Below, piece after piece: positions 1,294 to 18,008 of a stretch of DNA of 64,000 nucleotides. Origin of the DNA: Gemmatimonadota bacterium (GTDB taxonomy: Bacteria > Gemmatimonadota > Gemmatimonadetes > Longimicrobiales > Gaopeijiaceae); NCBI GenBank assembly GCA_040882465.1, contig JBBEBG010000008.1, forward strand, positions 48,848 to 112,847, in the 5' to 3' direction. The translations under genes were made by a program, and so were the position numbers. Position 1 is the first letter of the stretch, and every line of letters begins with the position of its first letter. A model generated the notes under the pieces. The model was not told where the DNA came from. It saw nothing but the letters and a program-made list of their open reading frames with translations, and searched no databases.

Positions 1294-1563
1294 TCAAAAC
1301 TCCTGGATCACCGTGAGGATCAGGATGAAGATCAACGGGATCGGCACCGCGGCGATGATCCAGAGCTTCTTCGGCTCGAACCGCAGGTGCATGTAGTACA
1401 TCGCGACCAATAAAGCGCTGGTCAGGGACACGATGACGAGGAGGGTCACCGATACGGCCGTCGGAAGCCCCAGCATCATGATTCCCACCTTGCCGAACAT
1501 GAGAACGGCCAGAACGAACCAGATCAGCATGTACGGCGGGTGAACTTTTTCGGCGGATGCCAT
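1294..1563 (-). CDS. coxD: Cytochrome c oxidase subunit IV (caa3/COX4-prokaryotic type)
   Basis: An 89-residue protein with three hydrophobic helices and the YYMHLRFEPK loop that is typical of prokaryotic COX4/CtaF subunits. It is a small structural subunit of the membrane oxidase complex. I start it at the ATG at 1563 (MASAEKVHPP). A longer reading of the same frame adds a serine-rich stretch that merely shadows the end of the subunit III gene. It follows subunit III by 13 bases and is certainly co-transcribed with it. Family assignment rests on size, topology and the position coxB-coxA-coxC-coxD. Confidence 0.88.
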   Translation of the reverse strand: MASAEKVHPPYMLIWFVLAVLMFGKVGIMMLGLPTAVSVTLLVIVSLTSALLVAMYYMHLRFEPKKLWIIAAVPIPLIFILILTVIQEF

Positions 1564-1576
1564 TAAACGGCCTCCC

Positions 1577-2206
1577 TCAGACGAGGTAGACGATGGTGAA
1601 GAGGACGATCCAGACCAGGTCCACGAAGTGCCAATAAAGCCCCATGATCTCGACACCGCCCACCTTCTTCGAGTTGAAATGCCCTCCCATGGAGCGGATC
1701 AGCACGCCGATCAGGGCGAAGACCCCGATCGTGACGTGGAGCCCGTGAAATCCGGTCATCAGGTAAAAGGTCGAGCCGTAAAGCGGTCCTCCCTCGGCGC
1801 TGTAATTGGCGGCGACCGGGATGAATCCGTCGGCCGCCAGGTGAATGTATTCATACACCTGGACCCCGACGAACGTGCTTCCGAGGAGGATCGTGGCGAC
1901 CAACCAGAGCTGGAGCCCCTTCTGGTCGTCATGTTCCAGCGCGGCGAAGGCCTTCACCATCGTGACGGATGAACAGATCAGGACGAAGGTGTTGATCGCC
2001 GTCAGGGGGACGTTGAGCACCTCGCCCGGATAGGCCCACTGCTCCGGATGGGCGAACCGGAGAATGACGTAGGCTCCGATGAGCGAGGTGAAGAACATGA
2101 TCTCCGAAAGGAGGAAGATCCACATCCCGAGCTTCATGGTATAAAACTCGACCCCGGGCTCGGGACGCCGCTGGTCCATCGGGATCGCGGCTGCGTGACT
2201 CGTCAT
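1577..2206 (-). CDS. coxC: Cytochrome c oxidase subunit III
   Basis: A 209-residue protein with five predicted membrane helices and subunit III signatures: KLGMWIFLLSEIMFF near the N-terminus, FYLMTGFHGLHVTIGV in the middle (FHGxHV is the family hallmark) and a C-terminal YWHFVDLVWIVLF. Subunit III stabilises the catalytic core of haem-copper oxidases in the cytoplasmic membrane. The length fits the short five-helix form found with bacterial caa3-like enzymes. It lies 11 bases after coxA and 13 bases before subunit IV. The ATG at 2206 is the natural start. Confidence 0.96.
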   Translation of the reverse strand: MTSHAAAIPMDQRRPEPGVEFYTMKLGMWIFLLSEIMFFTSLIGAYVILRFAHPEQWAYPGEVLNVPLTAINTFVLICSSVTMVKAFAALEHDDQKGLQLWLVATILLGSTFVGVQVYEYIHLAADGFIPVAANYSAEGGPLYGSTFYLMTGFHGLHVTIGVFALIGVLIRSMGGHFNSKKVGGVEIMGLYWHFVDLVWIVLFTIVYLV

Positions 2207-2217
2207 CGGCGTCTCTC

Positions 2218-3999
2218 TCAGTGCGAAGTGGAGGCGGAGGTGTGGTGCGGCGCCACGGACGAATCCGGCGGATCCGTCTGGAGAATGAAGTCCTCGCGGG
2301 CGCCGGGAACGCTGTATTCATACGGACCCCGGTAAACGACCGGCATCCGCTCGAAGTTGCCGTGAGGCGGAGGTGAAGGTGCGCTCCACTCGATGGAATT
2401 CGCTCGCCATGGATTCGGGCCGGCCTTCTTCCCCTTCCAGATCGAGAGGAGGAAGTTCGCCGCGAAGATGAACTGGAAAGCGAAGAGCACGAATACCGAA
2501 TAAGAGATGAAGACGTTCCAGGGTTGGAGCGGCTGCAGGTACGCGTATAGCGTCGGGTCGTAGAGACGCCGCATCATCCCCTGGAGCCCGATTCCGTGCA
2601 TCGGGAAGAATGCCAGGTTGTAAGCGATGAAGGTCCCAATGAAGTGGATCTTTCCCCAGGTCTCGTTCATCAACGTCCCGAACAACTTCGGATACCAATA
2701 GGTGATCCCCGAGAAGATCGCGAAGAGGCTTCCTCCGAAGAGGACGTAGTGGATGTGCGCCACGATGAAGTAGGTGTCGTGGATCGGGATATCCACCGGC
2801 GTGGACGCCATGAACACTCCCGAGAGTCCTCCGATGATGAAAAGGGCGACGAAGGCCACGCTGTGCAGGAAGGGAGTCGTGAAATGGATGTTCCCCTTCC
2901 AGAGTGTGCCGAGCCAGTTGAACACTTTGATGGCGGAGGGGACCGCGATGACGATCGTGGTGAACATGAACGTCATCCCGAGCCTCGGGTTCATCCCGCT
3001 CATGAACATGTGGTGTCCCCACACGATCCAGCTCAGGAGCGCGATCGCCGCGATGGCGAAGACCATCGAGTGGTATCCGAATACGGGCTTCCTTGCCCCG
3101 TTTGCGATCACCTCGGAGACAATCCCCATCGCGGGGAGGATGAGGATGTAAACCTCGGGGTGGCCGAAGTACCAGAAGAGGTGCTGCCAGAGGAGAGGCT
3201 CACCGCCGAGTTCCGGCTTGAAAAAGGTCGTCCCGAGCGTCTGATCCGTGAGGAGCATGATCAGCCCTCCCGCGAGGATCGGCATCGCGAGGAGGACGAG
3301 AATCGCCGTGATGAAAAGCGCCCAGACGGTGAGCGGGAGGCGGAACCAGGTGAGCCCCGGGGCCCGCAGGTTGATGATGGTCGTGATGTAGTTTACGGCT
3401 CCCGTGATGGACGAGAAGCCGAGGAGGAAAAGAGAGATCAGCCAAAGTTGTTGGCCGAGGTAGACGCCGGTGAATTCGCCCGACGTCGAGAGTGGTGCGT
3501 ACGAGGTCCACCCCGCGCCCGCCGCTCCTCCTTCCACAAAAAAGCTCGCGAGCATGATGAAGCCGGCCGGCACCGCGAGCCAGAACGAGAACATGTTCAG
3601 CTTCGGGAAGGCCATGTCGGCCGCGCCGATCTGAAGGGGGATCAGCAGGTTCCCGAACACTCCGACGAGCAGCGGCATGATCGCGAAGAAGATCATGAAG
3701 GTCCCATGCATCGTCACGAGCGAGTTGTAAAACTCCGGGAGAATGATCCCGCCGGGAGCCATCGTCTCGGGAAGGATGTCCACCGGGAGGGGCGTTCCCG
3801 GAAAGCCGAGCTGCCACCGCATCACGGTGGCGAGCGTCCCCCCCAGGAGGAGGAAGAGGAGGCTCATGAAGAGGAATTGCTTCCCGATCGTCTTGTGGTC
3901 GGTCGAGAAGATATACTTCCGGACGAAGGAGAGCTCCTCATGGTGCTCTCCCGCGAAGGGAAGGAGGTCGTAGTCCGTTTTTGTGGCCACGTGACTCAT
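2218..3999 (-). CDS. coxA: Cytochrome c oxidase subunit I (haem-copper oxygen reductase, A1-like)
   Basis: The catalytic subunit of a proton-pumping haem-copper oxidase, 593 residues with about twelve helices. Visible ligands are H98 in TMHGTF (low-spin haem), H280 in FGHPEVY with the cross-link tyrosine Y284, the H329-H330 pair in VWGHHMF (CuB), and H415 and H417 in FIVAHIHYVLFGG (high-spin and low-spin haems). E282 within HPEVY marks an A1-type D-channel rather than the YSHP variant of A2 enzymes. It sits between coxB and coxC with short gaps, giving a standard operon. The electron donor is probably one of the cytochromes or the cupredoxin encoded just upstream. Genes for haem A synthesis (ctaA, ctaB) are absent from the window. 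Confidence 0.98.
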   Translation of the reverse strand: MSHVATKTDYDLLPFAGEHHEELSFVRKYIFSTDHKTIGKQFLFMSLLFLLLGGTLATVMRWQLGFPGTPLPVDILPETMAPGGIILPEFYNSLVTMHGTFMIFFAIMPLLVGVFGNLLIPLQIGAADMAFPKLNMFSFWLAVPAGFIMLASFFVEGGAAGAGWTSYAPLSTSGEFTGVYLGQQLWLISLFLLGFSSITGAVNYITTIINLRAPGLTWFRLPLTVWALFITAILVLLAMPILAGGLIMLLTDQTLGTTFFKPELGGEPLLWQHLFWYFGHPEVYILILPAMGIVSEVIANGARKPVFGYHSMVFAIAAIALLSWIVWGHHMFMSGMNPRLGMTFMFTTIVIAVPSAIKVFNWLGTLWKGNIHFTTPFLHSVAFVALFIIGGLSGVFMASTPVDIPIHDTYFIVAHIHYVLFGGSLFAIFSGITYWYPKLFGTLMNETWGKIHFIGTFIAYNLAFFPMHGIGLQGMMRRLYDPTLYAYLQPLQPWNVFISYSVFVLFAFQFIFAANFLLSIWKGKKAGPNPWRANSIEWSAPSPPPHGNFERMPVVYRGPYEYSVPGAREDFILQTDPPDSSVAPHHTSASTSH

Positions 4000-4051: not shown

Positions 4052-4837
4052 TCAGAAATCTCCGTGCTCGTGCATGGGAGTTGCGGCGCCTTCCGCGAGG
4101 CCGGATGTCACCGCGCCGTTCCCCGCCTCCGCACCGATATCCAACGACGCCAGTACGCCGCCGAGCACCGCCTGGCGCGCCGCGACCTGGGTCGCCTCCC
4201 ATGCTTCGAACTCGGCCTGGGGTTGGACCGCCACGATGCCGTCCATCGTGGAGTGCCCGGTGCCGCACAGCTCCGCGCAGCCGAGCGTGTATTCGCCCGT
4301 CTGTATGGCCTCGAACCAGATGGGGATGACCATCCCCGGGACGGCGTCCTGCTTCAGCCTGAAGTCGTAAACGAAGAAAGAGTGGATTACGTCCTCGGAG
4401 GCGAGGTGGATGAGGATCGGCCGGTCCACGGGGACGTTCATGCGATTCAGGAGAGTGAAGTCGTCGGCGGTCTCGAACTGGCCGTCCGCCCCCGCGTAGC
4501 GGGTCTCCCACTCGAACTGTCGTGCCGTCAGCATGACTTCGTAACTGTCCGCCGGGAACACCTCCGGATTTTTGATCCGGTTCCAAACCGGCGCGCTCAT
4601 GAAGGCCAGCACCACAACGATGACGAAGGGAACCGCGGTCCAAATGACCTCGGCCTTCGTGCTTCCGTGAATGTATTCGGCGCGTTGTCCCTCGCGATGC
4701 CGGTACCTGAAGAGGAAGTACACGAGGAGCAGTTCCGTGCCGAAGAACACGGCGCCGGTGATGACCAGGATGATGTAATAAATCCGGTCTATGTCCGGCC
4801 CGAAGGTGGACACGCTTGGGTCTAGCAGCCAATCCAT
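4052..4837 (-). CDS. coxB: Cytochrome c oxidase subunit II, CuA-binding
   Basis: A 261-residue subunit that accepts electrons from a periplasmic donor at the binuclear CuA centre. Two membrane helices (about residues 20-43 and 64-82) precede a cupredoxin domain. The CuA ligands are complete: H152 in VIHSFF, then C187, E189, C191, H195 and M198 in CAELCGTGHSTM. There is no C-terminal cytochrome c domain, so this is not a true caa3-type subunit II and needs a separate electron carrier. The last 50 residues form an alanine/glycine-rich tail ending MHEHGDF, of unknown use. It is the first gene of the coxBACD set and lies 49 bases after a cupredoxin-like lipoprotein. Confidence 0.96.
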   Translation of the reverse strand: MDWLLDPSVSTFGPDIDRIYYIILVITGAVFFGTELLLVYFLFRYRHREGQRAEYIHGSTKAEVIWTAVPFVIVVVLAFMSAPVWNRIKNPEVFPADSYEVMLTARQFEWETRYAGADGQFETADDFTLLNRMNVPVDRPILIHLASEDVIHSFFVYDFRLKQDAVPGMVIPIWFEAIQTGEYTLGCAELCGTGHSTMDGIVAVQPQAEFEAWEATQVAARQAVLGGVLASLDIGAEAGNGAVTSGLAEGAATPMHEHGDF

Positions 4838-4886: not shown

Positions 4887-5777
4887 TTACTGATCCGCTC
4901 CCGTCACCGCGGGAGCGTACCCGGCCGCCGCGAGCTCTTCCGGAGTATGGAAGTGCGGGTCGATCGGTTCACCCAGAGGCACGACCGCGTTTGCGAGCAT
5001 CGCCTCTGTGAAGGAAAAGGAGACCGTGGCGGTCTGGCCGGTCGCCACCGTCACCGTCGCCTCCTGCGTGCCGAGCCGGGAGTGCCACGCCTCGAGGACG
5101 TATTCGCCCGGAGGGAGATTTCGGAGGTCGAAGGTGCCCCCCGCGTTCGAGACGGCGTGGTAAGGATGGGCCACGACTCCCACGTACGAGTTCATCCACC
5201 CATGCACGTCGCATTGGATGGGGACCATGACCTCGGGCTGGGCGAGGGTCCGGTCCGTCGTCATGTTGACCGGCTGAGTGATGTTGAAGCCCCGGTTCAC
5301 CGTCGGGCTCGCCGAGATGTTATGGAGGAGCCCGTCCGAGTTCTGGAAGGTGAGGGTCTGGTTCACCATCACCCCCGAGACGTGAGGGAGGTACTGACAG
5401 CCGTCTTGGTTGATCAGCGTCGCCTCGGCCGGGACGGGGAAGCTCATCCCCTCGAGCCCCTCTTTCACGTAGACGAAGACATCGCCCAGATGGCCGGCGC
5501 TCACCTTGAAGCTTTCGGTCATCGCGGGCGTCGCATGTTTCGCCGCGCAGGTCGGCTCCGAGGTCATGTCGATCGGTGTATCCGCCGGAGCCGTGCCTTC
5601 GAACATCACCATCCCGGTAACGTGTCCCGCGGTCGCCATGTCGAAGGGCGCCTCCGTAGCGCCACCACCGGCAGCGCCGCCCGCGGCGTCACCTCCGTCA
5701 CCTCCGCCACATCCAGCGAGCGCCCCGACCACGACGAGCGGGGTCAACGTGTGTAACACCTTCTCATGGATCTTCAT
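4887..5777 (-). CDS. Cupredoxin-like lipoprotein, probable blue-copper electron carrier
   Basis: A 296-residue lipoprotein. The signal peptide ends in a lipobox with C23 (LAGC), followed by a glycine-rich linker. The central domain (about 50-205) has a possible type-1 copper set: H152 in LLHNIS, and C189, H192 and M195 in CDVHGWM. The C-terminal part (about 205-260) looks like a carboxypeptidase-regulatory beta-sandwich (GGTFDLRNLPPGEYVLEAW). Similar proteins are often found beside respiratory oxidases. Its place between the cytochrome c genes and coxB suggests it carries electrons to the CuA site, or is a structural part of the complex. Copper binding is inferred from the motif only. Confidence 0.72.
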   Translation of the reverse strand: MKIHEKVLHTLTPLVVVGALAGCGGGDGGDAAGGAAGGGATEAPFDMATAGHVTGMVMFEGTAPADTPIDMTSEPTCAAKHATPAMTESFKVSAGHLGDVFVYVKEGLEGMSFPVPAEATLINQDGCQYLPHVSGVMVNQTLTFQNSDGLLHNISASPTVNRGFNITQPVNMTTDRTLAQPEVMVPIQCDVHGWMNSYVGVVAHPYHAVSNAGGTFDLRNLPPGEYVLEAWHSRLGTQEATVTVATGQTATVSFSFTEAMLANAVVPLGEPIDPHFHTPEELAAAGYAPAVTGADQ

Positions 5778-9045: not shown

Positions 9046-10908
9046 TCAGTGGCCAGGGGCCGGGTGGAGGCCTGAGCCGAGTCCGGGCTCGGCATCGGGG
9101 TTGTTTCCCGTCGTGCTCGCCAGCGGTGCCGCTCCGGGCGGGGCCTTCGCCGTCGTCAGCTCCGGCTTCGCGATCATCCCCCCGATCCAGAAGACGAAAG
9201 AGATCATCGCGAGGAAGACGAGGACGCAGGCGCTGATGATCTGCGCCGCGTACCCGAGCGCCGGTGTCGCCGCATATTCACTCGTGTCTCGGATGACTTC
9301 GTAGACATGCCAATGCTGGCGGATCCCGCTCCGCGCGAAGCCCATGAGCCCCATCAGCCAGGTGAAGGTCACGAGCAGCACAAAAAGCGCGTATTGGGAG
9401 CGCGGCGGCATTTTCCCCCATTGGATCGCGCCGCGCGACTGGGCCCCGCGCGCAATGAGGACATCGAGCGTCAGGACCGCGATGATCGTGAAGAGGACCG
9501 CAAGTACCTGGTAGACTGAAAAGCCGATTCGCACGATCGCGGGGACGAAGTAGCCGTAGACGCCATAAAAGAGGACGATTCCCGCGCACACCGCGAGGAG
9601 GATCCCCTGCGTCATCGTCCCCGTCCCCGCCCAGCTCACCGTCGGATTCTTGTTGGCGCGCCGGTAGAGGAGGAAGGAGAGGAAGGTCGTGAGGATCATG
9701 AGGTTCACCGCAGTATTCTTCGCGCTCATGACCCCGAGGACTCCGAGGAAGGGGTGGTGCGTCCCCCCCATCGCTGCCAGCTCCTCACGGTCGGCGATCA
9801 TCGAGTGGGGAGTCGCCCATACGATCACGCCGAGGACGAGGATGAGGAGCATCCACTTCGTATAAGGGGCGAAGCGCTCACCCCCGGGAATCCGGCCAAG
9901 TCCCAGCCAGAGGTAGTAATTTCCGGCGAGGAAGAGGATGCCAATGAGGAAGGCCTGGACGATCCAGAGCCAGCTCATGAAGCCCCCCATCATCGTGACG
10001 CCCATCTGTTGGTTGTACTCGTAAATCTCCCGCCCCAGATAGTATCCGGCGAAGGGGAGGACGAGGAATACGCCGATGGCGATGAAGTTTCCGACGTATC
10101 CCATCCAGTCGTAGTGCGCCCGCTCCTCGTCCGACGTTGCCTTGAGGAAGCGGTAACCCGCGTAGGCCGCGACGACCGCGCCCCCAAAAACCGCGTTCGC
10201 GATCAGGCGGTGGATGTTGATCGGCATCCAGGTTGCGTTTGCGAATGCGCTCCAGAACTGGACGGTGGCAGGGGCCGTATCGGGGGTGAGGTCGCCGGGA
10301 GGGCTCATCATAAAGGTGAGCCAGGAGTTCGCGATGAACATCACGACCGTGCCCCAGACATTCAGGAGAATCCCCATCCCCCAGTGCCCGAGCTTCGCGC
10401 GTCCCGCCTTCCAGTGATCCCATCCATAGTAGTAGATGTACAGCGTCGCCGACTCGGCAAAAAATAGTCCGGCGTAAATCCACATCGAGATCCGGAAGAC
10501 CTCGCTCATGTAGCTCCAGAGCGCCGGGTAGAGCGTCGTCAGGAGGAAGACGAAGAGCCCGCCGAGGAGCGCCGTCGCGCTGTAGGCGACGAGGAGGAGG
10601 CGGGTGAACTCCTTCGCGAGCTTGTCGTAGCGGGCATCCTTCCCCCAGATCCCGATCGCCTCGGCGATCACCGCGAACATGGGGACGCCAAGAACGAAAG
10701 CGGCGAACATGAGATGCACCTGAGCGACGATCCAGACCGCCGCGCGGCTTCCCACGAACGGAGCGTCCGCGCCGTAGGTCGGAGGGGTGTAACCCTGGGC
10801 GAGGAGGGGGCCGGCCATGCCCGCGAGCAACACGATTCCCGAAAGGAGGACGGCGGCCAGGACCCTTCCGGGCGCCAACCCGGCGTCGAATCTCGACGAT
10901 TCCTTCAT
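9046..10908 (-). CDS. CydA-like (cytochrome bd superfamily) membrane subunit without a CydB partner
   Basis: A 620-residue protein with an N-terminal signal-like helix and about a dozen further helices, related to cytochrome bd subunit I. Family positions are recognisable: H65 in VAQVHLMFAA (haem b595 ligand position), E152 in FAESATLYIYYYGWDHW (the conserved acidic residue), and H233 in INIHRLIANAVFGG (haem b558 ligand position) after the NSWLTFMMSPPG loop. The quinol-loop motif GRQPW is absent and no cydB gene follows. Instead three cytochrome c genes follow directly. This pattern matches the CydA homologues described as cytochrome-c-associated (OR-C) or related divergent (OR-N) branches of the bd superfamily, so the donor may be cytochrome c rather than quinol. 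Whether it reduces oxygen, or works as a quinol:cytochrome c reductase, cannot be told from sequence. A TAGTG overlap joins it to the radical SAM gene. Confidence 0.82.
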   Translation of the reverse strand: MKESSRFDAGLAPGRVLAAVLLSGIVLLAGMAGPLLAQGYTPPTYGADAPFVGSRAAVWIVAQVHLMFAAFVLGVPMFAVIAEAIGIWGKDARYDKLAKEFTRLLLVAYSATALLGGLFVFLLTTLYPALWSYMSEVFRISMWIYAGLFFAESATLYIYYYGWDHWKAGRAKLGHWGMGILLNVWGTVVMFIANSWLTFMMSPPGDLTPDTAPATVQFWSAFANATWMPINIHRLIANAVFGGAVVAAYAGYRFLKATSDEERAHYDWMGYVGNFIAIGVFLVLPFAGYYLGREIYEYNQQMGVTMMGGFMSWLWIVQAFLIGILFLAGNYYLWLGLGRIPGGERFAPYTKWMLLILVLGVIVWATPHSMIADREELAAMGGTHHPFLGVLGVMSAKNTAVNLMILTTFLSFLLYRRANKNPTVSWAGTGTMTQGILLAVCAGIVLFYGVYGYFVPAIVRIGFSVYQVLAVLFTIIAVLTLDVLIARGAQSRGAIQWGKMPPRSQYALFVLLVTFTWLMGLMGFARSGIRQHWHVYEVIRDTSEYAATPALGYAAQIISACVLVFLAMISFVFWIGGMIAKPELTTAKAPPGAAPLASTTGNNPDAEPGLGSGLHPAPGH

Positions 10909-10910
10909 CA

Positions 10911-12329
10911 CTAAGCTTCCCCCCCGCGTCGGAGGAAAAATGGGAGACGCTTCGAAAAATCCACCGGCATGTTTCTCCGCACCTCGGCCATCACCTCGAG
11001 GTCCACGCGCTCGTATCCGCGCTCCCGCGCGAAACTTTCCACGCGGGAAGTCACGACGCCACGAACGAAGCTCGGAATCCGGCGCATCCGCTCCTCCGCT
11101 TCAGCGCTCCAGGGGAGTGTTGGTTCGCTCGCCGCGCCGTAAGTGACGGCCCGTGCCGGCTCGAAGACCGGCCTGTTCCCCGGGGGATCGTAGGCGCAAG
11201 AGTCGTCCGGCCCGAGGAGATCCCCCGTCATCGCGTACGCCCGCGCGCGGCATCCTCCGCAGACGGAGCGGAACTCGCAGGCTCCGCAGCGTCCCCCGAG
11301 CTCGCCGTGGCGAAGCGCGTGGAAGACGGAGGACCGCTCCCAGACCTCGCGGAATCCGGTCTCGCGCAGATCTCCCGCGACGACCGGTGTGTACGGGCAG
11401 GGGGTGAGCTTTCCCTCGGGCGTGATGCGGCAGTATTGGACCCCGCAGGGGCAGCGCGTCCGGTAGTTCAGGAGGGGCGACTCCGGGTCACCCTGGAGGA
11501 CGTGGCGCATCAGCTGGGGCTGGCACTTGGAGCGAATCATCATCCGACCGCGATACTCGCATTCGAGCGAGACGAGCTCCTCCAGGACACCTTCGTTTTC
11601 TTCAGGGGAGAGCCCCTTCATCGCCTCGCCTCGTCCCGTGGGGACGAGGAAATAGAGATTGAAGGAGACTGCGCCCTCATCGGCGGACCAGGCAACGAGG
11701 TCGCGGAGCTCGCTCCGGTTTCCTCGGGTCAGGCTCGTCTGGACGATGAAATCGAGACCGGCTTCGCGGAGGCGTCGGACCGCGCCCAACGTCTCCGTGA
11801 GGGCGCCCTGCCCATGCCGGAATCGGTCGTGATACTCATTGCGAAGCGAGTCCACGCTGATCGCGACCCCGGTGACGCCGGCTCCTTGCAAGGAGGCGAT
11901 GCGAGGTCCGGTCAGGCGGGTCCCGTTCGTTCCGACGACCACCGTCGCCCCCGCCGTCGAGGCGTGGCGGGCGATCTCCTCGAGGTCCTCCCGGAGGAGG
12001 GGCTCCCCGCCGGAGAGGATCATCACGGGATTCGGGTTCACTTCAAGGATTTCGTCCAGAATCCGGTGGCACTCCGCCGTCGAAAGCTCGCCCTCGGCGG
12101 CATGCCACGATCCCGCGGAGATGTAGCAGTGCGAGCATGCGAGATTGCACCGCTTCGTGAGATTCCAGGCCACGACATGGGGGAGGAAAGGCACCCCCTC
12201 GCCGAAATGGGGTGCCGAATCGAGGAACGCGGCGGTGGCCGGGCCCCGTGTCCACCCTGGAGCGCAAGCTCCGTCGCGGGAGGAATCCACCGCAGCCAAT
12301 GGTAGCGCGCGTCGTGCGAACGGCTCCAT
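10911..12329 (-). CDS. Radical SAM/SPASM protein with C-terminal PCP_red domain
   Basis: A 472-residue protein. The radical SAM cluster motif is C61-x3-C65-x2-C68 (CNLACSHCY), preceded by PHVVAWNLTKR as in the NirJ/AhbC/AhbD haem-modifying group. A cysteine-rich SPASM region follows (CPCGVQYCRITPEGKLTPCPY, then CGACEFRSVCGGCRA), fit to bind extra Fe-S clusters. The last 60 residues contain a PCP_red-like segment (WSAEAEERMRRIPSFVRG), the domain found at the C-terminus of dark protochlorophyllide reductase subunit B. The start ATG at 12329 overlaps the stop of the USP/PCP_red gene (TGATG), so the two are translationally coupled. A tetrapyrrole or peptide substrate is plausible; the actual reaction is unknown. 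Confidence 0.85.
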   Translation of the reverse strand: MEPFARRALPLAAVDSSRDGACAPGWTRGPATAAFLDSAPHFGEGVPFLPHVVAWNLTKRCNLACSHCYISAGSWHAAEGELSTAECHRILDEILEVNPNPVMILSGGEPLLREDLEEIARHASTAGATVVVGTNGTRLTGPRIASLQGAGVTGVAISVDSLRNEYHDRFRHGQGALTETLGAVRRLREAGLDFIVQTSLTRGNRSELRDLVAWSADEGAVSFNLYFLVPTGRGEAMKGLSPEENEGVLEELVSLECEYRGRMMIRSKCQPQLMRHVLQGDPESPLLNYRTRCPCGVQYCRITPEGKLTPCPYTPVVAGDLRETGFREVWERSSVFHALRHGELGGRCGACEFRSVCGGCRARAYAMTGDLLGPDDSCAYDPPGNRPVFEPARAVTYGAASEPTLPWSAEAEERMRRIPSFVRGVVTSRVESFARERGYERVDLEVMAEVRRNMPVDFSKRLPFFLRRGGEA

Positions 12330-14455
12330 CAATTGGCGCCGTCCCGTTCCGTCGCCATGAAGCGTTCCATCGCGGAACGTGCCTCCTCGGGGGAGGCCAT
12401 CTTGAGGTCCACGGGGCACTTCCCGGCCTTCTCTTCGATGTCTCTGATCGGGCACCGGGTAATCCCCTGGGCCTTCGCCTCCTCGATGAACTTCCGCATC
12501 TCGGGGGTGAGGCCGTCCACCCCTTCGGCGGCCGCCTGGATCTGCTTCGTCTGAAGCTCGCGGAACATGACGAGCATCGTGTCCATGTCGAACTCGTCCG
12601 CTTCGACCATGGCCTGTTTGTTTTCGTCCATGACGCGGGTCGTGACCCGCCAGAGCCCGTGCTCCTTGGCGAAACGCTCGACGGTGTTGCGGGCGAGAGG
12701 GCGGGCGACGAGGGGAACGGCGCGGAGCCGGTCGAAGGCCTCACTGCTCCAGACGACGGGGTCGTGCGCGGTCCGCTCGCGCGTCTGCACGTGCCCGGTG
12801 TAGGGGCACTTGGTTTCGATGGTGGGCACTGTCGCGACCGGGTCCGCGTCGTTCCCCTGGACGACGGTCCGCTTCATCGCCTCTTCGGCCTTCACCTCGG
12901 CCAGGGCGAGCTCCTCCGCCGTACCGATCCCCATGATGAGCTGCATGTGGGTCGGGAGGAGTTTCTTGATCGCCTCGTCGAGGCGTTCCCCGGTCACGGT
13001 CGGGAGGACGGTCGCCGTGCCCTTCACGCTCCCGTTGGTGGCGGCACCGTCTCCGTTGACGGACGCGCCATTCGCTGAAACGCCGTTTCCGTTCGCCTGG
13101 GCCGCGGCTCCATTCGACTCCGCGCCTCCACGCGCGGAGGCGACCGCGGGCCCGTAGTGCTCGAGGACGAACTCCTCGACCGCCTTCCGTGCGATTCCCA
13201 GCGCGAACGGGGGCACACGGAGAATCCGGACCTCCGCGTCGGGCGCCCACTCGAGCCCCTTTTCGCCGTCTTCCTCGATCCAGGGGATGTCGTCCGGGCG
13301 AACGTCCGTCGTCCCCACGAGGAGGATGTTCGTCGGGGAGAGGCGGCAAAGGTTCTCCGCCTGCGACCCCATGTCCGTCCCGTCCACGCGGTGTCCACCG
13401 TGTCGCGCGATCACCAGGAGGGTGGGGTTCAGCTCCTCTACCCACTGGAGAATGCACTGGAAGGGCTTCCCGATGAGGATCTGGGTCTCCATCTCCACGT
13501 CGGGGAACTCGCGGGCCATGATCTCGGCCCGCTTCAGGTTCGCCTGGCAGAGCTTCAGGAGCCCCTTGTCTATGATGTTGTTGTGGAGCTCTTCCTGCTC
13601 CTCGAACTTGAAGACCTTCGCCGCCTGGGCCGAGAGGACATCCTTGATGTTGCCGAAAACGACGTGGTGGTATTCGACGTCGAAGGCCGAACAGACGTGG
13701 AGTTTCGCGCCGAACTCGCGCGCCAGCTCCAGCGCCACCCGCATCGCCTTGTACGAGTAAGAAGAGCCATCCACGCAGACGATCCAATTCCCTCCGGAGA
13801 GAGGTCGGTCGTCCCTCACGATCAGGGTGTCCTTCTCGATTTCACGGATTACGCGAGAGGTGACGCCGCCGAGTTGGGAGTATGGCTGACGCCCGATTCC
13901 GTGTGCGCCCATGACGACGAGGTCGTAGTCGCGCCCGCTCTCGCCGGCCAGCTTCTCGTCCAAATCTTCGTCCTCGGCGACGATCCGGCCGTTTTCCCCG
14001 AGGCGCACGTCCCCCCGGACCTTATCTCCACCGTCGTATTTGCCGGCGATGTTGGGATCGAAGCCGATCAGGCTGGGAAGCCGCCCCGCTCCACGATTCG
14101 CCTCGCGGATGATCTCTTCGAAGTTGATTCCCTCGAGGAGCTGGCGAGTGAGAGGGATCTTCGCGGCCTGGCAGCGCTTGTCCGTCTCGTCGAGGAAGGA
14201 ATCCGAAATGAGCTGGAGCCCCTTCTCGATCAGCTTGTCGTGGATCTTGCGCTGGCGCTTGATCTCTTCGTCGGTCTGAAACTGCGCGGGAAGGCCGGTC
14301 TCGAGCTGCCGGAAGCGGACGTCGTGTAGGCGGGCGGCATAAACGTGATTGCCCGTAATGCGCCCTTCGGAGCGGTTACAGACCTCGACTGCTCGCTCGA
14401 CCGCCCAATTCGAGTGAGGGGAGTTATCAACGGGAACGAAGACCTCGCGGTACAT
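12329..14455 (-). CDS. Double universal-stress-protein domain fused to two PCP_red-like segments
   Basis: A 708-residue cytoplasmic protein with an unusual architecture. USP domain 1 covers about residues 1-215, with an acidic insertion at about 125-172 and the nucleotide motif GAHGIGRQ. USP domain 2 covers about 223-383 (ARHGGHRVDGTDMGS). A PCP_red-like segment (403-434, WAPDAEVRILRVP) is followed by an Asn/Gly/Ala-rich linker (440-480), a helical stretch, a CPYTGH motif (C550), a second PCP_red segment (569-615, WSSEAFDRLRAVP) and a tail with CPIRDIEEKAGKCP. I start it at the ATG at 14455 (MYREVFVPVDNS), where the USP fold begins. The next gene is a radical SAM protein with the same domain. 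Function is unknown; it could sense or hold a tetrapyrrole or nucleotide. Confidence 0.78.
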   Translation of the reverse strand: MYREVFVPVDNSPHSNWAVERAVEVCNRSEGRITGNHVYAARLHDVRFRQLETGLPAQFQTDEEIKRQRKIHDKLIEKGLQLISDSFLDETDKRCQAAKIPLTRQLLEGINFEEIIREANRGAGRLPSLIGFDPNIAGKYDGGDKVRGDVRLGENGRIVAEDEDLDEKLAGESGRDYDLVVMGAHGIGRQPYSQLGGVTSRVIREIEKDTLIVRDDRPLSGGNWIVCVDGSSYSYKAMRVALELAREFGAKLHVCSAFDVEYHHVVFGNIKDVLSAQAAKVFKFEEQEELHNNIIDKGLLKLCQANLKRAEIMAREFPDVEMETQILIGKPFQCILQWVEELNPTLLVIARHGGHRVDGTDMGSQAENLCRLSPTNILLVGTTDVRPDDIPWIEEDGEKGLEWAPDAEVRILRVPPFALGIARKAVEEFVLEHYGPAVASARGGAESNGAAAQANGNGVSANGASVNGDGAATNGSVKGTATVLPTVTGERLDEAIKKLLPTHMQLIMGIGTAEELALAEVKAEEAMKRTVVQGNDADPVATVPTIETKCPYTGHVQTRERTAHDPVVWSSEAFDRLRAVPLVARPLARNTVERFAKEHGLWRVTTRVMDENKQAMVEADEFDMDTMLVMFRELQTKQIQAAAEGVDGLTPEMRKFIEEAKAQGITRCPIRDIEEKAGKCPVDLKMASPEEARSAMERFMATERDGAN

Positions 14456-14902
14456 AACGCGCCTCGGTCTCGGGGCCGCAGTTCCCTTCGTCCCTTGCGG
14501 GCACACACTGCCCACAACCCCGTTCAGGGGATCGCACAATGCTCTAACCGGCAACACTTCACCGGTAAGTCCCCCGAGCGTGGCTCGGGGGACCTGGTGT
14601 CGATCCGGGGCGAAGGTGGCGAGTCTTTCTCGCCATCTCGCATTGTCACCGACCGGTCTCCTCCCGGAGACCAACCGCCAAGCCACGACCGACCGTAGCC
14701 GGCGCGTGCTCAAGAACCGCGAGAACCTTGCGGACCCGTGCGCTCCAAGTACGAGGCAGGAGCCAGCGTATCACCTGCAGGCGTCCAAGGACGCCCAACG
14801 ATCCGCCCGAAATGCGGCGAAATCCCAACCCTTCCGATCCCGCCGCGTGGCCAGTATATCCGGCCCCCTCAGGGCTGTCAACTTGCGGTTCGGGGCGTCG
14901 GG
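14456..14902 (-). other. 447-bp non-coding stretch with at least seven hairpins (possible structured leader)
   Basis: I see no credible gene here. Inverted repeats are frequent: 14499-14513 (5-bp stem), 14518-14530 (4 bp), 14547-14566 (5 bp), 14569-14593 (perfect 11-bp stem, 3-base loop), 14617-14635 (perfect 7 bp, 5-base loop), 14655-14672 (perfect 7 bp, 4-base loop) and 14780-14795 (7 bp). All but the last lie within 220 bases of the ATG of the USP/PCP_red gene, so a transcript of that gene would begin with a chain of stem-loops. I find no RNase P, tmRNA, SRP or known riboswitch signature. It could be a regulatory leader, a small RNA, or a terminator for the ABC transporter genes plus a new promoter. 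Confidence 0.5.
14569..14593 (-). terminator. Perfect 11-bp hairpin with 3-base loop
   Basis: Arms at 14569-14579 (GTCCCCCGAGC) and 14583-14593 are exact reverse complements. The stem is very stable, but no T-run follows on either strand, so it is not a classical intrinsic terminator. It is the strongest element in the hairpin-rich gap ahead of the USP/PCP_red gene. Confidence 0.45.
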
Positions 14903-16650: not shown

Positions 16651-17103
16651 CTACATCCCTTCCAGTCCGAGCTCGGACCGCGCGGTGTCCATGATCTCGG
16701 GCGTAAGGGTGCGGATCTCTCGCTCGCGCGCGTAGTCGGTGTAGATGCGCTTCACCATCCCGCGCACGAAGCTCGGTACGCGTTGGAGGCGCTCCACCGC
16801 CTCGGGGCTCCACTCCACCGGCGCGGGCCCGGCGCGTGGCCGGAGCTCGGGTTCCACGAAGGCCAGCTCGCTCCCGCCGTCGAGGGACCCCCGGGTCGCC
16901 TCCATGGGCTGCACGGGGACTTCTCTCCCCCCGATCTGAATTCCCATCGAGCTCACGAAGCGCGTCTCCATCGGGTTCGTAAGCATGGCCATTTCCCTGT
17001 GGCAGTTCCCGCAGGTGAAGACCGCGGCCAGCGTTCCGTCGCCGGGAAGCTGGCGTTCCGCGAATGCCATCACTTCGTCGCACTCGATGCACAGGAACTT
17101 CAC
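16651..17103 (-). CDS. Zinc-ribbon protein with PCP_red domain
   Basis: A 150-residue protein starting at GTG 17103, overlapping the stop of the Mrp gene as GTGA. An N-terminal zinc ribbon (C5-x2-C8 and C31-x2-C34) is followed by a linker and a C-terminal PCP_red segment (about 95-145, WSPEAVERLQRVPSFVRGM). The CGNCH string looks like a haem-c site, but there is no signal peptide, and two evenly spaced CxxC pairs fit a zinc or Fe-S ribbon better. It is the third protein of the cluster with this domain. It may bind a tetrapyrrole and dock on the Mrp ATPase or radical SAM enzyme; that is inference. Confidence 0.78.
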   Translation of the reverse strand: MKFLCIECDEVMAFAERQLPGDGTLAAVFTCGNCHREMAMLTNPMETRFVSSMGIQIGGREVPVQPMEATRGSLDGGSELAFVEPELRPRAGPAPVEWSPEAVERLQRVPSFVRGMVKRIYTDYAREREIRTLTPEIMDTARSELGLEGM

Positions 17104-18008
17104 GGCGCGCCTCCAAACGGGGCGCGCACGACTCCGGCCACGCGTCCCGCGAGCTCGCGCAAGGCGCGGGAGGCCGGACGTTCCCCCTCGCCTCCCGCCG
17201 GTGGGTGTCCGCGGTCCGTCTCGCGGCCAAGGACCGGATCGAAGGGGATCCGCGCCCAGACCGGAACGTCGGCGACGCCGGAGAGTTGACGGACCCCATC
17301 TCCGGGAAAGACGTCGTGCTCGTGCCCGCATTCAGGGCACACGTACCCGCTCATGTTCTCGACGAGCGCGATCTCCGCGGCCGACGCCTCGCGCACCAGC
17401 CGCACCGACCGGGCGACGACAGCGCGAGAGATCTCCGAAGGGGTGCTGACGAGGAGGACGAGGGGAATCCCCGGGACGAGCTCGAGCAGGCGGCGGATCT
17501 TGTCGGTTCCGGGGGGCACGTCGATCAGGAGAAAATCCGGCTCGCCCCAATCCACGTCGCCCAGAAACTCGCGGAGCGCCGTCGTCTCCATGCTGCTCTG
17601 CCAGAGAAAGGTGTCGGATGCCGGGTCTCTCCACCGGAGCGGGGCGTCTTCGCCCTCCTGGAGGAGCTCCATCGAAATGACGCGCACGCCTCCGACGCCC
17701 GTGGGAGGAATGACACCGGTCTCGCGGTCCTCCAGCCGGCCTCCCCGGACCCCGAGCATCCGGGCGAGGGACGGGCCGTTCAGGTCGGCGTCGAGGACGC
17801 CGACCCGGTGGCCGCGGCTCGCGAGCGCCACTGCCAGATTTGCGGTGACGGCGCTTTTTCCCACGCCTCCCTTGCCGCTCGCGATCGCGATGATCGTTCC
17901 GATTCCCGAGAGGCGCGCGGCGAGGCGCGCCCGCTGGTCGAGCACCTGTTCAAGGAGCTGCGAGCCGGTCGCGTGTTCGACTTCTCCGTATGTCCTGAAC
18001 TTTCTCAT
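17100..18008 (-). CDS. Mrp/NBP35-family P-loop ATPase (Fe-S cluster carrier)
   Basis: A 302-residue ParA-like ATPase. The deviant Walker A is SGKGGVGKSA near residue 45, followed by VLDADLNGPSL and the D-VPPGT switch (LLIDVPPGTDK), all Mrp/ApbC hallmarks. A C-terminal CPECG supplies the CxxC that bridges an Fe-S cluster between two monomers. I start it at ATG 18008 (MRKFRTYGEVE). The N-terminal DUF59 domain of longer Mrp proteins is missing. It lies 26 bases after a small ferredoxin gene and is coupled to the zinc-ribbon gene. Likely role: delivering Fe-S clusters to the radical SAM enzyme or another cluster protein here. Confidence 0.9.
   Translation of the reverse strand: MRKFRTYGEVEHATGSQLLEQVLDQRARLAARLSGIGTIIAIASGKGGVGKSAVTANLAVALASRGHRVGVLDADLNGPSLARMLGVRGGRLEDRETGVIPPTGVGGVRVISMELLQEGEDAPLRWRDPASDTFLWQSSMETTALREFLGDVDWGEPDFLLIDVPPGTDKIRRLLELVPGIPLVLLVSTPSEISRAVVARSVRLVREASAAEIALVENMSGYVCPECGHEHDVFPGDGVRQLSGVADVPVWARIPFDPVLGRETDRGHPPAGGEGERPASRALRELAGRVAGVVRAPFGGAP

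Follow-up and report, generated by a model that had tools for sequence, protein, structure and literature searches.

The closest described relatives of the locus reported here come from nitrite-oxidizing bacteria. In Nitrospira, a gene for a bd-like protein (bd-like_3) is clustered with genes for two membrane cytochromes c and an alternative NxrC (alt_NxrC_2), and the cluster is duplicated as bd-like_4 (PMC6606698). The same bd-like/alt-NxrC cluster is found in Nitrospinae and anammox bacteria (PMC8026999, PMC3578206), and NXR adjoins this module in nitrite oxidizers and anammox bacteria (PMC6606698, PMC8026999). Few unexplained membrane complexes of nitrite oxidizers are transcribed as highly as the one it encodes (PMC6606698). 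Its bd-like CydA has the N-terminal half of CydA, extra helices replacing the Q-loop, and about 14 transmembrane helices (PMC3578206). In canonical CydA of Escherichia coli, two glutamates, E99 and E445, stand at hemes d and b595 and act as O2-site ligands (PMC6853902).

We analyzed a 64,000-nucleotide stretch of a Gemmatimonadota genome (the window), which encodes a CydA-like protein of 621 amino acids initiated with a GTG codon (Table 1). A preceding sequence-only reading had identified this open reading frame correctly, but the start that it gave, 10908, is an ATG codon after the GTG at 10911. The protein matched Pfam family PF01654 (Cyt_bd_oxida_I, E=4.5e-20) over nearly the whole profile, and an NCBIfam scan returned no CydA equivalog match for it. 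Its AlphaFold model, generated from a 46-sequence alignment (mean pLDDT 84.9, pTM 0.84), showed approximately 13–14 transmembrane helices behind a signal-peptide-like first helix. All 10 Foldseek matches of the model below E=0.001 were CydA chains, and a profile of the CydA-like family retrieved only CydA from the PDB. The CydA fold, and with it the earlier description of the protein as CydA-like, is thus supported. Profile searches of the whole genome (3.53 Mb, 99.56% complete, 4.55% contamination) revealed no PF02322 (cydB) gene, as had been claimed from the sequence, and a single PF01654 gene, that of the window, leaving no gene for a second, CydA' subunit.

On the 3' side, the CydA-like gene is followed by c1, c2, c3, a cupredoxin-like gene, coxB, coxA, coxC, and a coxD-like gene, which form an operon-like array with intergenic spacings of −14 to +59 bp. 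The three cytochrome c genes follow at spacings of 17, −14, and −4 bp, and their products contain 2, 1, and 2 CxxCH motifs, respectively, five in total; both observations agree with the earlier reading of them as cytochrome c genes of one operon, and the coxBACD genes named at the same time were recovered behind them. The c1 protein is a relative of Kustd1711 of Kuenenia (PDB code: 7zs0, 3e-16), for which potentials near +350 mV have been reported (PMC11791136). Two CxxCH motifs were conserved in 22 of 23 c1 orthologues and one in all 23 c2 orthologues. The c3 protein carries a C-terminal membrane helix and resembles the "alternative NxrC": it contains two Cytochrome_CBB3 domains and an EB_dh domain (1.1e-12), matches TIGR03477 (4.5e-22), and aligned in the PDB with 6h5l_B (5e-49), 2ivf_C (EbdC), and 7b04_C (NxrC). 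Residues H152, C189, H192, and M195 of the cupredoxin-like lipoprotein are conserved and would constitute a copper site. In CoxA every heme and CuB histidine is present, and the CuA set of CoxB is complete (H152, C187, E189, C191, H195, and M198); judged by these residues, the aa3 oxidase appears functional.

Table 1. Features of the CydA-like/aa3 locus in window coordinates.
Feature	Position	Strand	Support
coxD-like small membrane subunit	1294..1563	-	ORF; name inferred, start inferred inside a longer ORF
coxC, cytochrome c oxidase subunit III	1577..2206	-	ORF, synteny; named from sequence
coxA, heme-copper oxidase subunit I	2218..3999	-	PF00115 4.8e-148
coxB, subunit II, no fused cytochrome c	4052..4837	-	TIGR02866 above cut-off
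Cupredoxin-like lipoprotein with CarboxypepD_reg-like domain	4887..5777	-	Pfam
c3, diheme cytochrome c fused to EbdC/NxrC-like heme-b domain, 528 aa	5837..7423	-	Pfam, NCBIfam, PDB
c2, monoheme cytochrome c with three N-terminal membrane helices, 268 aa	7420..8226	-	Pfam
c1, N-terminally anchored diheme cytochrome c, 271 aa	8213..9028	-	Pfam Cytochrom_C
CydA-like subunit (bd superfamily, OR-N/bd-like branch)	9046..10911	-	PF01654, AlphaFold/Foldseek, residues, tree
Radical SAM/SPASM protein, NirJ2/AhbD type, C-terminal PCP_red domain	10911..12455	-	TIGR04055, TIGR04545, PF08369
Universal-stress-protein (Usp) domains and PCP_red domain	12329..14713	-	PF00582, PF08369; conserved upstream of module
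Candidate operon promoter TTGACA-17-TATACT, 11/12 consensus	14853..14881	-	Consensus scan, weak

Upstream lies the radical SAM gene, whose stop codon overlaps the start of the CydA-like gene by one base. Its product scored 284 bits with TIGR04055 and 283 bits with TIGR04545, both under the 500-bit cut-offs. A PCP_red domain (protochlorophyllide reductase) was observed in three neighbors (10911–12455, 12329–14713, and 16651–17331), and homologues also stand near the module in other phyla, at about 19 and 26 of 80 loci. A role of these neighbors in heme or FeS maturation is possible. The idea that the radical SAM protein makes a modified heme is only a lead, since a similar gene lies beside nar in the same genome and a ferrochelatase is present. 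At a looser threshold, the promoter scan yielded one candidate against 1.4 expected.

The arrangement recurs across the phylum. A clear CydA-like relative was detected in 79 of 298 Gemmatimonadota genomes, mostly at 69–85% identity, with an additional 50%-identity paralogue in two of them (G239 and G275). The gene order Usp-PCP_red, radical SAM, cydA-like, c1, c2, c3, cupredoxin, coxB, coxA, coxC is kept in 24 loci, one of which is without the radical SAM gene (present in 23/24). Given this spread and the conserved order, the CydA-like gene is more than a chance occurrence. Wherever a Gemmatimonadota contig reaches coxB, cupredoxin-coxBAC follows the module (21/21 loci, several families). The module-linked coxA type, defined at ≥65% identity with the next band at ~50%, was present in about 80 genomes, and almost all of these have the module. 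Four apparently module-free genomes (G160, G226, G210, and G267) proved to be contig ends; three keep coxBAC without the module (G158, G166, and G043), and one is ambiguous (G038). A bc-type cytochrome b was present in all three clear module-free genomes. With kinship ignored, it was rarer in genomes with the module than in those without (15/79 vs 92/219, p=2e-4), and likewise within the window's family (3/27 vs 23/47, p=0.001). This pattern, which is confounded by relatedness, gives a hint that the module's function overlaps with that of a quinol:cytochrome c enzyme.

Public genomes were scanned with a profile led by the Gemmatimonadota paralogue of 50% identity, and members of the family turned up in anammox Planctomycetota, Nitrospirota, Nitrospinota, Rokubacteria, SAR324, Proteobacteria, and other groups. 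The modules are of two recurrent types, both consisting of a CydA-like gene, c1, c2, and c3: type A has the longer CydA-like protein, and type B is that of the window. Anammox loci mostly carry an A module, and A and B stand in tandem in Nitrospirota, Nitrospinota, SAR324, and many Proteobacteria. At one locus (L095:2416-7915), an AioB/AioA-like pair and two MauG/MbnH-like diheme genes precede the tandem modules, and some 25 others in Proteobacteria, SAR324, and Rokubacteria are similar (e.g. L107, L112, L117, L122, and L130). The AioA/AioB-like pair scored 434 bits with TIGR02693 (cut-off 359) and over the cut-off with TIGR02694; the gene content recalls iodate reductase operons. Separately, on an Anaerolineales MAG contig (L073:2057-10034), the genes behind an A-type module are those for cupredoxin, coxB, and coxA; the cox link may have arisen there a second time, or the contig may be mis-binned, and this case was left out of the evidence.

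In a tree of 148 rows, with canonical CydA drawn from one phylum and with OR-C and archaeal CydAA' outside the sample, canonical CydA and the bd-like family were set apart by branches of 4.4 and 5.6 changes per site, each with 100% support. The nine canonical CydA of the same phylum formed a separate 100% clade, the A proteins another (with one deviant row), and the cox-linked Gemmatimonadota proteins a third (33 rows, including L061_B). The window protein grouped with bd-like proteins of Nitrospirota, Nitrospinota, and anammox bacteria. Its placement in the bd-like (OR-N) branch outside canonical CydA is therefore supported, as is the divergent branch proposed for it from the sequence; the result that would have overturned that proposal, a position within canonical CydA together with a cydB gene at another site, did not emerge. 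A canonical quinol-oxidizing cytochrome bd with cydB elsewhere in the genome, which the Pfam family name alone would suggest, is extremely improbable: the tree, the missing Q-loop, GRQPW, E99, and E445, and a nearly complete genome with neither cydB nor a second cydA all stand against it. CydAB identity was rejected on the absent PF02322, the single PF01654 gene, and the tree.

We then compared the residues of the bd active site. H19, E107, and H186 of E. coli CydA are retained as H66, E153, and H234, and the position that we take to be H126 in E. coli numbering is retained as H176. The H19, E107, and H126 equivalents are kept almost everywhere in the CydA-like family. H66 has an equivalent wherever the N-terminus is complete, except for Lys in the A-type CydA-like proteins of two Betaproteobacteria (L122:9986-12097 and L123:9983-12091). 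E99, however, is replaced by Tyr146, invariant in 139 relatives, and E445 is lost, with a non-acidic residue at its position in either alignment in all 139; the invariant candidates nearest to it are Met523 and His535. The M393 equivalent differs by alignment, being M395 with MAFFT and Tyr467/Gln468 with HHalign. The Q-loop region is replaced by predicted helices 313–340, 344–365, and 394–420, so that the model has the bd-like layout described above. The sequence-only reading, which had the histidine and glutamate positions present and GRQPW missing, therefore held for H19, E107, and H186 but not for E99 and E445, and the motif is altered to (G)IRQHWH in window-type proteins, where R531 and W534 persist and H535 is invariant. 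Replacement of E99 and E445 with retention of H19, E107, H126, and H186 implies a high-spin heme site that has changed without disappearing.

These residues bear on whether the CydA-like subunit itself reduces O2. As an OR-N-type cytochrome-c-oxidizing oxygen reductase, it would receive electrons via c1, c2, and c3 and reduce O2 at an altered di-heme site of His66, Tyr146, Glu153, and possibly His535 or Met523, with aa3 as a second oxidase sharing the same donors. The protein does fall in the OR-N/bd-like branch, whose members are held to be putative cytochrome c:O2 reductases in two papers (PMC10839748, PMC8509429), although no characterized OR-N enzyme was found in the literature consulted, and the H19, E107, H126, and H186 positions are retained. 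Nitrospira, which lack heme-copper oxidases, are also thought to respire with a bd-like protein (PMC6606698); that candidate, however, is bd-like_2, a paralogue distinct from the alt-NxrC-linked bd-like_3 and bd-like_4 that match the window module (PMC6606698). Further points against O2 reduction are the replacement of E99 and E445 throughout, the Lys for H19 in the two betaproteobacterial relatives, the strict pairing with an intact aa3, and the presence of the family in anaerobic anammox bacteria. We consider this explanation rather unlikely, and the oxygen reductase first guessed from the sequence is weakened by the same glutamate loss, anammox occurrence, and aa3 linkage.

We instead favor, at somewhat less than even confidence, a membrane complex that feeds quinol electrons through cytochromes c to aa3 and is not itself an oxygen reductase. 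The operon would then specify an electron path complete in itself. The CydA-like protein, c1, c2, and c3 would assemble into a membrane cytochrome complex; the CydA-like part, a descendant of a bd oxygen reductase, would be its heme-b-carrying membrane subunit, with the O2 site probably lost or altered. This complex would take electrons from (mena)quinol into periplasmic c and b hemes and pass them, directly or via the cupredoxin, to CuA of the operon's aa3 oxidase, where O2 would be reduced. The potentials of Kustd1711, the c1 relative, would suit a donor towards CuA (PMC11791136). Several lines of evidence point this way: the module stands beside NXR, AioAB-like enzymes, or aa3 in different lineages and occurs in anammox bacteria; cupredoxin-coxBAC follows it in all 21 Gemmatimonadota loci whose contigs extend that far, and the complete aa3 is of a type almost confined to module genomes; both O2-site glutamates are gone in all 139 relatives; and bc-type cytochrome b is rarer with the module and present in all three module-free cox genomes, an association that is confounded by relatedness and includes few module-free exceptions. 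An adapter between the membrane and differing periplasmic enzymes covers the NXR, AioAB-like, and aa3 contexts more simply than a terminal oxidase does. Against it, no quinone site is identifiable in the CydA-like protein, whose known quinol-binding loop is missing; retention of the H19, E107, and H126 equivalents is unexpected if the high-spin heme site is dead; and a working O2 site could have Tyr146, Met523, or His535 as replacement ligands. The putative quinol:cytochrome c link to coxBACD suggested from the sequence fits better than O2 reduction.

The other respiratory enzymes of the genome also count against a feeding role. A complete alternative complex III (ACIII) operon, actABCDEF, lies on the same contig just right of the window (C8, ~112.7–120.4 kb; L059), with no oxidase directly attached among the neighboring genes examined. 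A second oxidase, of caa3 type with cytochrome c fused to CoxB, is encoded within a few kb, in convergent orientation to the module operon (L060:3296-8518), and a third COX1 gene is on contig C26. With ACIII and a caa3 oxidase already in the organism, the proposed function would be redundant, and the idea that the module substitutes for complex III in an organism lacking one was rejected. NrfD-type (ACIII-like) genes, a type also found in other enzymes, occur in 295 of 298 Gemmatimonadota genomes; a 2022 survey gives ACIII in <10% of Gemmatimonadota genomes (PMC9426454).

Such donors would be used if the module served an aa3 supercomplex as an electron wire or docking unit, carrying electrons from periplasmic donors, such as ACIII cytochromes or a dehydrogenase that docks on the NxrC-like domain, to aa3 with neither quinone nor O2 chemistry. 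The five c hemes and the NxrC/EbdC-like heme-b domain do point to the periplasm, partner enzymes vary by lineage, and the genome has ACIII. A 13–14-helix protein held at ~70% identity across a class, with invariant His, Glu, Tyr, and Met in its helices, is nevertheless hard to explain as a mere anchor, and we regard the wire as improbable. A link to nitrite oxidation in this genome was rejected: PF00384 was matched by NarG of a NarGHJI cluster, by ActB, and by a short 515-amino-acid frame on contig C40, and no periplasmic NXR was found among them; the large molybdoenzyme is NarG.

The family and the four-gene module of a CydA-like protein, two membrane cytochromes c, and an alternative NxrC were already known from nitrite oxidizers, a precedent that the sequence-only reading had missed; the arrangement is new. 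In the literature searched we found no solitary B-type module tied to an aa3 operon throughout Gemmatimonadota, and the accessible part of the 2022 survey mentions no such complex (PMC9426454). Its occurrence in Gemmatimonadota suggests that the bd-like complex is a general electron-feeding device, beyond nitrite metabolism. More speculatively, and with greater doubt than the favored reading above, it may represent, besides bc1 and ACIII and without kinship to either, a third kind of quinol:cytochrome c oxidoreductase, one with the scaffold of a bd oxidase and acting as an exchangeable quinone-pool adapter for NXR (nitrite oxidizers and anammox bacteria), AioAB-like enzymes (Proteobacteria and SAR324), and aa3 (Gemmatimonadota). 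Free of nitrite oxidation, lacking a CydA' partner, and tied to a well-understood oxidase, the Gemmatimonadota version is a simpler system for determining the reaction and its direction. If it is a quinol:cytochrome c enzyme, it would add a new complex III; if O2 is reduced without the two glutamate ligands, the requirements of the bd-type active site would change.

Compared with known systems, the locus shares with ACIII and cytochrome bc1 the proposed role alone, quinol to cytochrome c beside an oxidase operon; there is no homology, and ACIII is encoded separately in the organism. Canonical cytochrome bd (CydAB, qOR) has the same fold, PF01654, H19, E107, and H186, whereas the window protein lacks CydB and the Q-loop, has Tyr for E99, has lost E445, and carries an altered GRQPW. 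Like the OR-N family (Murali et al., 2021), as papers citing that work describe it, the protein is CydA-like without CydB or Q-loop and has extra helices and a cytochrome c context; unlike it, the locus has no proposed CydA' partner, a pairing itself unproven in the literature, and is linked to an aa3 operon. The modules of Nitrospira, Nitrospina, and anammox bacteria contain the same four kinds of gene (CydA-like, diheme c, membrane c, and NxrC/EbdC-like diheme c), and window-type CydA-like proteins of Nitrospirota, Nitrospinota, SAR324, and proteobacterial loci are ~50–57% identical. Those NXR-linked clusters have one or two modules (A and B) with NXR nearby, whereas the window locus, in a genome where periplasmic NXR was not found, has a B-type module only, with coxBACD in the same operon.
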